Shown here: piece by piece, positions 45,895-48,616 of the stretch
Numbering within the stretch: the stretch's first letter is position 1
Layout of the letters: each line of letters opens with the position of its first letter
Origin: an uncultured SAR86 cluster bacterium
Lineage (GTDB): Bacteria; Pseudomonadota; Gammaproteobacteria; Magnimaribacterales; AG-339-G14
DNA length: 64,000 nt
NCBI GenBank assembly: GCA_902625415.1
Contig: CACOBG010000001.1
Span: forward strand, 1 to 64,000
Direction of reading: 5' to 3'
Notes under the pieces: generated by a model
The model's database searches: none
What the model was told of the DNA's origin: nothing
What the model saw: only the letters and a program-made list of their open reading frames with translations
Position numbers and translations under genes: made by a program

Positions 45895-47436
45895 TTATGA
45901 TATTGCTGGGGCTGATTTTCCCAGTTTTTGTTCTCTTAAAGTTCTTTTCAAAACTTTCCCTGTAGCATTTCTCGGTAAAGCTTCGATGAACTCCACACTT
46001 TTTGGTATTTTAAATTTTGCTAAGTTTTTAAGACAATGATTAATGATATCCTCTTCAGATAAATTTTCATTTGGCTTTAAAGCAATAAAAGCAAGGCCAA
46101 CTTCTCCCCACTTTTCATCAGGTATACCTATGATTGCAGCTTCTGCAATTTGAGGTAATTGATAAAGCACATTTTCTACTTCAGCTGGATATACATTTTC
46201 TCCGCCAGAGATGTACATATCCTTTTGACGGTCAACAATGTAGATGAAACCCTCATCGTCCATTTGTGCAGCATCTCCTGTCTTTAACCAACCATCCACA
46301 AAAGAATTTTTTGTTGCCTCTTCATTATTCCAATATCCTGGAGTGATATTAGGGCCTTTGATAAGTATTTCTCCTACTTCACCTTGCTTTACTTCATTGC
46401 CCTTTTCGTCGACTATTTTTACCTCTGTATGTAATAAAGGTTTTCCTGCTGAACCAATTTTTCTCGCAGCATCATCGCCAGATAATCCAATTCCGCCAGG
46501 GCTGGTTTCTGTCATTCCCCAACCTTGCCATAATTCTACGCCCTTGTTTTGCCAAGTCTCTATGATGACTTCAGCGCATGGTGCTCCACCTACACCGGCT
46601 CCTTCAATTCTTGAAAAATCTGTTGTCGCAAAATTAGGATGTTGCATCATAAACTGGAAAGGTGCAGGCACAGCAAAAAAATGTGTAATTCCAAAATCAG
46701 GATTATTGATAATTTCCAAAGCCTTTCCTGGATCAAACTCTTTCATCAAAACGATTTGTCCGCCATTATGCAAAATTGGATTTGCATAACAATTCATGCC
46801 ACCTGTATGAAATAGTGGCAAAACAACAAGTTGAATTGTTTTATCAGTAATTCTGGCAGTAGCTCCTAAATTTACTGTATTAAAAAATTGCATTTGATGA
46901 TTGATCATAGCGCCTTTAGGGTGACCAGTCGTACCGGACGTATACATCAACATAATTAAGTCATCATGATTACTTTCTACAGTTTCGAAATCATTATTTT
47001 CTGAAATAGCTTGTTCATATTCACTACCGTAATTGTCCTCTTCAAGCATTAAAGAGTTTTTTATTCCACAATCTTTTATTAGTTCTTGAGCAATATCCTT
47101 AAACTCGACAGAATAAATCAAACACATTGGCTTGCTATCATTGAGAATGTATTCAAGTTCTGGCTTGGTAAGCCTCCAGTTAAGAGGTAATTCAACACCG
47201 CCAATTTTTCCACAGGCAAATTCAAGTTCAAAAACTTCGGCACAATTATGGGCTAAGATCGCAACTCGATCTCCTTTTTTCAGACCTTTCTTTTGCAACC
47301 ACCCCGCCAATGATTTAGATCTTTGATTCAATTCATAATATGAGGTTTCTCGACCATTTGAGATCTCTTTGATAGCAATTTTTTTTGGCCTAAAGTTAGA
47401 TTGATACTCTACCCAATCATAATATCTTACAGTCAT
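45895..47436 (-). CDS. AMP-dependent acyl-CoA synthetase/ligase
   Basis: The 513-aa product has the AMP-binding signature (LIMLMYTSGTTGHPKGAM near residue 160), GWGMTETSP, GDAAQMDDEG and the C-terminal catalytic lysine region RNATGKVLKRTLRE. It activates a carboxylic acid with ATP and transfers it to CoA. It lies directly before the acyl-CoA carboxylase, so the pair may activate and carboxylate one acyl substrate. Chain length is not readable. Confidence 0.92.
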   Translation of the reverse strand: MTVRYYDWVEYQSNFRPKKIAIKEISNGRETSYYELNQRSKSLAGWLQKKGLKKGDRVAILAHNCAEVFELEFACGKIGGVELPLNWRLTKPELEYILNDSKPMCLIYSVEFKDIAQELIKDCGIKNSLMLEEDNYGSEYEQAISENNDFETVESNHDDLIMLMYTSGTTGHPKGAMINHQMQFFNTVNLGATARITDKTIQLVVLPLFHTGGMNCYANPILHNGGQIVLMKEFDPGKALEIINNPDFGITHFFAVPAPFQFMMQHPNFATTDFSRIEGAGVGGAPCAEVIIETWQNKGVELWQGWGMTETSPGGIGLSGDDAARKIGSAGKPLLHTEVKIVDEKGNEVKQGEVGEILIKGPNITPGYWNNEEATKNSFVDGWLKTGDAAQMDDEGFIYIVDRQKDMYISGGENVYPAEVENVLYQLPQIAEAAIIGIPDEKWGEVGLAFIALKPNENLSEEDIINHCLKNLAKFKIPKSVEFIEALPRNATGKVLKRTLREQKLGKSAPAIS

Positions 47437-47614
47437 TATTTATCTACATTTATGAAAACCAGTCATTTAACTATGCTTTAAATAAATTTTGGATGCAATA
47501 ATTTGAATGAGAAATAATTTGTAATAAAAAAATTTTTTTTAATAAATTTTATATAAAGGTATAAGCAAAAATTAAGAATTGATTGTCTATTATATCTTTC
47601 TCCTAAGAGATGAA

Positions 47615-47722
47615 ATGATTAGTGAATATTTAAAATCAGTTTGGAATTTTTGTAGAGAATATCCTTTTTATGCAGTTGCCTTTTTTTATGGCGGCTACCT
47701 AATAGGTGTAGTCTACTTTTAG
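47615..47722 (+). CDS. Predicted 35-residue single-pass membrane microprotein
   Basis: An ATG at 47615 opens 35 codons, ending at a TAG at 47720-47722. The peptide begins MISEYLKSVWNFCREYPF and ends in a hydrophobic YAVAFFYGGYLIGVVYF segment long enough to cross a membrane. A weak ribosome site (AAGAGA, 47605-47610) lies just upstream. Its stop abuts the stop of convergent PhyH at 47723 with no gap, exactly the packing seen at other convergent ends here, which argues that it is a real gene. The function is unknown. Confidence 0.5.
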   Translation: MISEYLKSVWNFCREYPFYAVAFFYGGYLIGVVYF

Positions 47723-48616
47723 TTATTTTGTAGATTTTTGAACCAGTTCTTTAGGATCTGGGATTGCAGAATACTCGTCAAAAGCTCTGTCTTTAAACAT
47801 GTTTTCTGGTGAAACAGATTCATATTCTGCATTTTTATCTAATGGATCAGAATAAAAACCTAGTACGTAGCCTCCCTTTGAATATCCTATTAGTGATCTT
47901 ATTTCCGGCGAAATGTCTTTTGCAATCTCAGGAGGACAGGATAAATATTGATTTTCTTCTTGGCGAAGCCAATTAAGAGCATAATGCAGAAAAACTCCAG
48001 TTCGAATATCATTTTTTGAAGTATTTTTTCCCCCGCCATGCAGTACAGTTCCGGTATAAAGGAGTACTGATCCCGCTTTCATTTCAGCATAAGCTATTTC
48101 ATCATCATTAGGAATACGGTCTTTTTCCCAGAGATGAGATCCAGGAACAATCTGCGTGGCTCCATTTTCCTTAGTAAAATCTGTTACTGCCCAAATGGTA
48201 CTCATAAGTGGTTCAACTTTTCTAGGTAAATAACCACCCCAAATTCCTCTATCTCTATGGAGAATTTGTTTACTTTCTCCTGGGCCAATACTTACAGCAG
48301 AAGTGAAATGCAGTTGATAGCCGTCGCAGTAAGGAGCTAAATATTTTTCGGAAACTTCATTGATTAAAGGATTTAAAGCTAATTTTCTACAGGCTTCAGA
48401 TCTTGCAATTAATGCTCCAACTCTCTTAGTTTTGAATCCAGTAAATTCATCTCTTCCAAACACATCATGTTTTAAATATGGCTTGAGATCGTCATTGATT
48501 CTAGAAATGTCATCTGAGTGCAAGAGGTTATCAATTATCACTCCAGCATCCTTATTTAGAACATCGATGATCTCTTCCGAAGAAGCCGAATTCGAAAGGT
48601 GAACTAAATCAGCCAT
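47723..48616 (-). CDS. Phytanoyl-CoA dioxygenase (PhyH) family protein
   Basis: The 297-aa product is a probable Fe(II)/2-oxoglutarate dioxygenase. The metal triad is visible as His and Asp in ILHRDRGIWGG near residue 138 and the distal His in TGTVLHGGGKN. The 2-oxoglutarate-binding Arg is likely in IRTGVFLHY. SAR86-type marine bacteria carry several such genes. PhyH relatives hydroxylate varied small molecules, including branched lipids, phosphonates and antibiotics, so the substrate is not predicted. Confidence 0.9.
   Translation of the reverse strand: MADLVHLSNSASSEEIIDVLNKDAGVIIDNLLHSDDISRINDDLKPYLKHDVFGRDEFTGFKTKRVGALIARSEACRKLALNPLINEVSEKYLAPYCDGYQLHFTSAVSIGPGESKQILHRDRGIWGGYLPRKVEPLMSTIWAVTDFTKENGATQIVPGSHLWEKDRIPNDDEIAYAEMKAGSVLLYTGTVLHGGGKNTSKNDIRTGVFLHYALNWLRQEENQYLSCPPEIAKDISPEIRSLIGYSKGGYVLGFYSDPLDKNAEYESVSPENMFKDRAFDEYSAIPDPKELVQKSTK

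Follow-up and report, generated by a model that had tools for sequence, protein, structure and literature searches.

A conserved 35-residue microprotein gene of SAR86 bacteria, common to uncultured phages and preceded by sigma-54 promoters in one SAR86 family

The microprotein gene and its neighbours

SAR86 is an abundant heterotroph of the surface ocean. A stretch of 64,000 nucleotides from an uncultured SAR86 cluster bacterium (contig CACOBG010000001.1, positions 1 to 64,000; hereafter the window) was analysed around a small ORF that lies in a gap of 286 bp between the genes of an AMP-binding enzyme and a PhyH-family dioxygenase (Table 1). An earlier note, made from the sequence alone, had placed a 35-codon ORF in a gap of about 290 bp, with its stop abutting that of a convergent PhyH gene, and both points hold: the ORF is present, its stop ends at 47722 and the PhyH stop starts at 47723, and the PhyH name is confirmed by Pfam. 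The contact of the two stops had been taken as an argument for a real gene and deserves little weight, since other SAR86 genera keep the microgene at other loci. The ORF alone is also unremarkable and proves nothing, since shuffling or Markov randomisation of the gap yields an ORF that starts with ATG and has 35 or more codons, on one strand or the other, in about 14-15% of cases. A chance ORF without a product, to which these randomised gaps lend some colour, is nevertheless barely credible, being refuted by the frame conservation, the pN/pS ratio and the cellular and viral family members described below.

Table 1. Features of the microprotein locus in the window and, where a locus handle is given, features of related loci
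Feature	Position	Strand	Basis or remark
AMP-binding enzyme (acyl-CoA ligase type), divergent neighbour	45895..47436	-	Pfam
Conserved block TATAAGYAAAA-N12-TTGTCTATTAT	47560..47593	+	exact at 13 of 14 same-genus loci, not at L002
AAGAGA, ribosome-binding-site-like, 4 nt 5' of the ATG	47605..47610	+	read from sequence
Microprotein gene, 35 codons plus TAG, MISEYLKSVWNFCREYPFYAVAFFYGGYLIGVVYF	47615..47722	+	ATG ORF; profile matches; pN/pS; predicted structure
PhyH-family dioxygenase, convergent neighbour	47723..48616	-	Pfam
tRNA-Arg(ACG) directly 5' of microgene (g6/g9 type)	L174:1245-1322		also L178, L181, L208, L209, L027, L024
Small membrane-type ORF after PhyH (g2)	L231:2398-2592		equivalents in L232-L234
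Run of tiny membrane-type ORFs, T4-like contigs (within L253-L283, for example)	L262:2501-3120		
Run of tiny membrane-type ORFs, T4-like contig	L161:7707-8283		
Alternative oxidase (AOX), T4-like contig	L161:8612-9187		PF01786, E 3.3e-67
Ammonium transporter, T4-like contigs	L151:11585-12760		PF00909

The ATG at 47615 is the likely start, because the in-frame extension further 5' (to a TTG at 47579) is not conserved among relatives and this ATG is kept. The sequence AAGAGAT precedes the microgene in 11 of the 12 close genomes, with TAGAGAT in L011; L013 and L014 differ. A sigma-70 scan gave two sites (shuffled mean 3.1), and a terminator scan gave none. At the locus of genome G012 (L013) the AMP-binding neighbour is absent beside the microgene and PhyH stands alone, and the two same-genus genomes that lack the microgene frame also lack a match to the PhyH neighbour at E 1e-40.

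Conservation, selection and distribution

A tblastn-type search with the microprotein gave matches in 40 of 101 genomes at E ≤10, the weakest of which are chance. A profile (A1) of 22 SAR86 rows, collected without the degenerate DNA pattern described below, matched 74 of the 203 genomes of the order at E ≤0.1, and strong homologues (E ≤8.7e-7) were present in 57, with the next genome at 0.0015 and thus a clear gap; among the 57, G117 matches only in part, at the end of its contig. The distribution is uneven among the SAR86 genera and families, which are labelled here g and f: the microgene was found in 2/7 genomes of g2, 0/9 of g3, 6/8 of g4 and part of the genomes of families f3 (genera g6, g9, g10 and g15) and f4 (genus g7), and the profile had no strong match in family f2 among the order genomes. 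Weak f2 matches, lying in an ORF of 117-126 residues, were treated as chance (L294 tests as FtsB/DivIC and L293 is alike).

The earlier note had proposed to judge the ORF by conservation of its frame and by synonymous against non-synonymous change in close relatives, and both came out in its favour. The frame is intact in 14 of the 16 genomes of the window's genus (g1), its own included. In 12 close genomes of the genus the gene has 11 nucleotide versions and 4 peptides, with 12 synonymous and 3 non-synonymous variable codons, a mean pS of 0.190 and a mean pN of 0.0059 (pN/pS about 0.03). Frame conservation and pN/pS together make the microgene more than chance, and the ORF is a genuine SAR86 protein gene under strong purifying selection.

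Strong matches among 369 genomes of the class were confined to G000, G016 and G041, all of the SAR86 order, and the best other match had E 0.0014. The sole other match in 398 genomes of the phylum (L142, E 5.7e-4) is a dissimilar 86-residue frame and was rejected. The degenerate DNA pattern of the family, an exact pattern that misses diverged members, was run over 84,980 bacterial and archaeal species and hit 65 stretches, namely 49 members (43 under SAR86 and 6 under Gammaproteobacteria names), 15 unrelated frames and one phage-like contig. By this search the cellular carriers are only SAR86-type genomes and one phage-like MAG contig. The latter (L185, JAAXIF010000105.1) is a 121-kb contig binned in a Sphingobacteriales MAG, with a T4-like phage look over the 8 kb that were read; the genes flanking its copy resemble those of the T4-like contig L161, on which the gene identities were tested. 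Its place in that MAG is possibly a binning error or a host clue. The reverse strand of another locus (L295, G178:C3) has, about 1.3 kb from the intact copy, a further partial frame that ends in AFFFCGFVIGETYFIL, as if the gene had been partly duplicated.

Structure and family searches

The AlphaFold2 model (mean pLDDT 96) has a helix at residues 2-15, a break at 16 and a helix at 17-34, with P17 directly after the break and G27-x-x-x-G31 on the second helix. Five residues (F12, P17, F23, G27 and G31) are invariant and three (F24, I30 and Y34) nearly so in a 27-row alignment, whose viral rows were found with a pattern demanding some of the invariant residues and weigh less than is apparent; the 22 SAR86 rows collected without the pattern show these five residues invariant as well. 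The hydropathy of the best 19-residue window, on the second helix, is a modest 1.46, which counts against the explanation preferred below. A single helix inserted in the membrane may be supposed, and the basic residues before P17 suggest an N-in/C-out topology. The earlier claim of a real microprotein gene with a membrane helix is supported by homologues, selection and predicted structure, the helix being a prediction.

No credible family match was obtained for the 27 members in Pfam, NCBIfam or PADLOC, or for five members in PHROGs; against solved structures (PDB) the best profile match had E 0.14 and Foldseek gave no match. Three of the 27 members resemble FixP_N of Pfam weakly (best E 0.014). 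In the available parts of the literature on SAR86 small proteins, SAR86 sigma-54, SAR86 phages and small phage genes, outside the global small-protein catalogue PMC11364881, the family is not named.

Genomic context and upstream elements in SAR86

The context was read at sixteen SAR86 loci of eight genera, the gene functions outside g1 being putative and read from sequence. The microgene occupies about seven different sites, among them the AMP-ligase and PhyH site of g1, a site in g4 with a glycosyltransferase-like gene and a NagZ-like gene, and one common site in g6 and g9 with panC/panD-type genes. No operon partner was recognised in the sixteen contexts, which counts against the explanation that we prefer below. 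A tRNA-Arg(ACG) gene stands directly 5' of the microgene in seven of seven g6- and g9-type loci scanned (Table 1), a classic integration spot. PhyH is present in the g2 and g3 genomes looked at, without an adjoining microgene; in g2 other small membrane-type ORFs, 64 and 56-57 aa long, come after it, and the 64-aa ORF of L231 has no Pfam match.

The conserved block upstream of the microgene in the window's genus is the sole match of its kind in its own genome at up to 3 mismatches and is probably a promoter or regulator site. No strict sigma-54 site was found at the 14 microgene loci of this genus, and no RpoN match at E 1e-10 in the nine g1 genomes tested. A second block, TTAAGTCA, lies 97-104 nt 5' of the F12 codon in 10 of 14 loci of g2, g4 and f4, the sequences in which it was itself noticed. 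Neither block was found in 20 stretches upstream of ammonium-transporter genes in these lineages, so that nitrogen control in the window's own genus is unsupported and would be an extrapolation from f3; this counts against the preferred explanation.

Sigma-54 promoters in family f3

A total of 28 loci were taken as f3 (five of them named records, placed by sequence) and gave 27 distinct upstream regions, all of which lie within one substitution of the sigma-54 (-24/-12) promoter TGGCAY-N5-TTGC. By script 21 have this form and five TGGTAY-N5-TTGC, and L209 was read by eye as CGGCAT-N5-TTGC; the strict form occurred in 2 of 10,800 sequences of a Markov null. The motif starts 57-58 or 71-74 nt 5' of the F12 codon, in two distance classes.

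RpoN was searched in 75 genomes at E 1e-10 and matched in 44 (29/34 in f3, 10/10 in f2, 0/8 in f4 and 5/23 in f1). The f1 matches are only 78-84-residue frames of the end of the DNA-binding domain (G019, G021, G022, G024 and G030), and from these sequences RpoN appears to have been lost in f1 and f4. The RpoN of the f3 genome G044 is full-length and passes TIGR02395, and all 12 of the f3 genomes with the microgene among those tested have RpoN. The ten f2 genomes have RpoN and none has the microgene, which counts against the preferred explanation.

Five f3 genomes were scanned with the motif TTGGCAY-N5-TTGCW and, as a control, with the motif backwards: G041, G044, G059, G095 and G062 gave 5, 7, 5, 7 and 2 sites (control 0, 0, 0, 1 and 1), and G000 gave 3 (control 1). 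With regulon annotations tested on one example each, a site was found before a TorF-type porin-glnK-amtB operon in 5/5 (the amtB frame of G059 ends at a contig end), between a Xan_ur (purine-type) permease and a TonB receptor in 4/5, before the microgene in 4/5 (G062 has no microgene) and before glnA-ntrB-ntrC in 1/5 (G095). In G095, NtrC exceeds the TIGR01818 cut-off and the NtrB-like kinase falls just under its own (239.5 of 240 bits). The sigma-54 site, RpoN and the like sites at glnK-amtB, glnA-ntrBC and the permease place the f3 microgene in a regulon that is mainly one of nitrogen acquisition. Activation by NtrC itself may be supposed from this company; a scan for simple NtrC palindromes found none at nine f3 microgenes, none at five glnK-amtB operons and two at glnA. 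The latter, TGCACTAAATAAGTGCA and GCACTATATAAGTGC, are candidate activator sites of the SAR86 glnA; measured back from the end of that gene's sigma-54 site in G095 (L347), they start at 39 and 92 nt. Some of the f3 sigma-54 sites lie inside genes and are probably chance. AmtB is present in 70 of the 75 genomes, so its co-occurrence with the microgene is uninformative.

A sigma-54 site also precedes an ORF of 125-134 residues followed by msrB- and murJ-like genes (putative names) in three of the five f3 genomes, of three genera (L356, L349 and L351). In f3 not every gene behind such a site has a nitrogen role, which counts against the preferred explanation and speaks for another, in which the microprotein is a general membrane-protein helper or envelope-stress protein with a housekeeping partner, the sigma-54 control being wiring specific to f3. 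It would fit this that f1 and f4, with no full RpoN match, have retained the protein behind different upstream elements, and that no element is common to their microgenes and their ammonium-transporter genes; yet the f3 regulon keeps mainly nitrogen-acquisition company, and the sigma-54 site is found in every distinct f3 upstream region. We regard a general helper as unlikely.

Viral relatives

In IMG/VR, a scan derived from the profile returned 93 stretches, 41 of them encoding relatives, and a broader DNA pattern hit 53 stretches on viral contigs, of which 50 are family members and three (L301, L309 and L337) are not. Counted from the likely start, the viral ORFs are about 32-42 residues long and contain a core resembling [IV]WEFCK-x-x-P-x-W-A-x-x-FFFCGY-x-IG. 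Many of the 50 uncultured contigs are T4-like, and at least six kinds of contig carry the microgene, the gene names resting mostly on one tested example or on a reading of ORFs: T4-like contigs with the microgene between UvsW and a late sigma factor; contigs with it between tail tube and UvsY, next to a hydrolase of the SleB type, or overlapping the gene of the small terminase, the large one lying farther along; and contigs with it behind a large structural-type ORF, ribonucleotide-reductase-like genes being present, or downstream of a tail-fibre gene. The window peptide had no match by tblastn in 50,697 phage records, and a phage peptide had one, at E 3. No strict sigma-54 site was found within 170 nt 5' of the phage copies L101-L165, which counts against the preferred explanation.

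In many T4-like contigs the site that separates the UvsW region from the late sigma factor holds a variable run of tiny membrane-type ORFs, of which the microgene is an optional member. The run, read at 25 of the 43 loci of a protein A, comprises A (about 54 aa) and ORFs of 32-33, 62-68, 53-58 and 37-43 aa (Table 1). The copies of A that were tested had no match in INPHARED, PHROGs or Pfam, its best match in 61 SAR86 genomes had E 0.02, and neither A nor the 68-residue neighbour was found in cultured phages. Gene order is the same in the cultured marine phages Mosig, Melnitz and P-HM1, which are relatives, and the run is missing there; two of the three have small ORFs at the site, which are unrelated.

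Some phages have a nearby SleB-type cell-wall hydrolase or an endolysin-/spanin-like cluster (the latter read from ORFs), as would suit a holin-like or pinholin-type lysis protein retained in SAR86. Such a role is very improbable: PHROG matches of five members included no holin family, no lysis gene was recognised adjoining the microgene in the UvsW, terminase and tail-tube contexts, and a lysis toxin would hardly be expected as a single, strongly selected gene on the chromosome. Small membrane proteins of the superinfection-exclusion kind are known, for example T4 Imm, and a family common to several phage lineages and one bacterial order could be a phage-borne exclusion or immunity protein domesticated by SAR86. 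Against this stand the near-invariant sequence in 12 genomes, unlike that of an arms-race gene, the lack of any PADLOC family in 27 members and the sigma-54 nitrogen control in f3, which does not fit, so that we consider immunity quite improbable.

An alternative oxidase gene lies about 0.5 kb from the microgene on one T4-like contig, and an ammonium transporter gene about 3.5 kb from it on T4-like contigs (Table 1). In the viral stretches examined the transporter was found in two contigs, as identical copies, and AOX in one, so functional links on the phage side are thin. The AOX neighbour, with the FixP_N resemblance, is what suggests a small subunit or regulator of the respiratory chain, which phages would pair with AOX to sustain respiration. 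Among 75 SAR86 genomes 23 have both genes, 6 the microgene only, 19 AOX only and 27 neither (Fisher p 0.0018, relatedness ignored); yet three g10 genomes with the microgene lack AOX, eight of nine g2 and g3 genomes tested have AOX and one has the microgene, and no oxidase gene was seen beside the microgene in the sixteen SAR86 contexts. AOX was rejected as the partner, the statistical link ignoring phylogeny and having many exceptions, and a respiratory role is improbable.

Four unrelated frames (L193, L200, L215 and L230) were removed before a tree was built from 41 SAR86 and 26 phage peptides over 36 columns. It did not resolve, did not reject one SAR86 clade (p-AU 0.243) and so does not decide the direction of transfer between SAR86 and phages.

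Interpretation and comparison with known systems

We favour, tentatively and at somewhat less than an even chance, the reading that the family is a nitrogen-stress microprotein of the inner membrane, working on a larger partner by helix packing, and that copies of it also serve phages. A short N-terminal helix would lie at the cytoplasmic face and, after the proline hinge, one helix would cross the membrane and end with the chain; its invariant glycine face (G27-x-x-x-G31) would pack against a larger protein of the inner membrane and alter that protein's activity or stability, the partner being most likely a transporter of nutrients or the transporter's sensor. In f3 nitrogen limitation would switch on the gene's sigma-54 promoter along with the rest of the NtrC-type nitrogen regulon (glnK-amtB, glnA-ntrBC and the purine-type permease). 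T4-like and other uncultured phages, which carry copies, would presumably impose the same state during infection, to their benefit. Where no full RpoN is recognisable, as in the window's genus, the lineage would have kept the protein with different elements upstream. A bolder form of this reading is possible and lies on the unlikely side: a SAR86 nitrogen-starvation microprotein, taken from or given to phages, that tunes an inner-membrane nutrient system on both sides and is the heterotroph's counterpart of hli and NblA.

No library searched here names this family, which SAR86 and uncultured phages have in common and which is wired to nitrogen limitation in one SAR86 family. It offers a concrete and testable link of nitrogen stress, a microprotein and infection, and a candidate auxiliary gene of only 35 codons can escape notice. 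If the bolder form of the reading is true, a 35-residue peptide would be an element of nutrient control in virus-infected cells, and the microprotein may be a tiny tool by which cells and viruses manage nutrient shortage.

Several known systems invite comparison. AcrZ, KdpF, MgtS and CydX have about 30-50 residues and one membrane helix and pack against a large partner; the microprotein is like them in size, predicted helix and supposed packing, and differs in having no Pfam or NCBIfam match and no recognised operon partner gene. The high-light-inducible proteins (Hlips) of cyanobacteria are very short, stress-induced proteins of one helix, and NblA is soluble. The microprotein has a like economy, being also very short and probably stress-linked, with copies in cell and phage, but its host is a heterotroph, not a cyanobacterium, and the 27 members gave no chlorophyll a/b-binding-type Pfam match at E up to 1. 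Like NblA it is small, linked (in f3) to nitrogen starvation and copied in phages, but no Pfam match of the NblA kind was found in the 27 members. As described in the available part of PMC5083919, hli genes are common to cyanobacteria and their phages, and NblA is a small nitrogen-starvation protein of cyanobacteria that acts in phycobilisome degradation and has copies in freshwater cyanophages. Virus-borne glnK-amtB occurs in marine phages, and one capture has been placed in Gammaproteobacteria, on a T4-like contig (available part of PMC8115048). A channel and a PII regulator are concerned there and a 35-residue protein here, with an ammonium transporter in only two viral contigs; the likeness lies in the capture of nitrogen-linked genes by phages.
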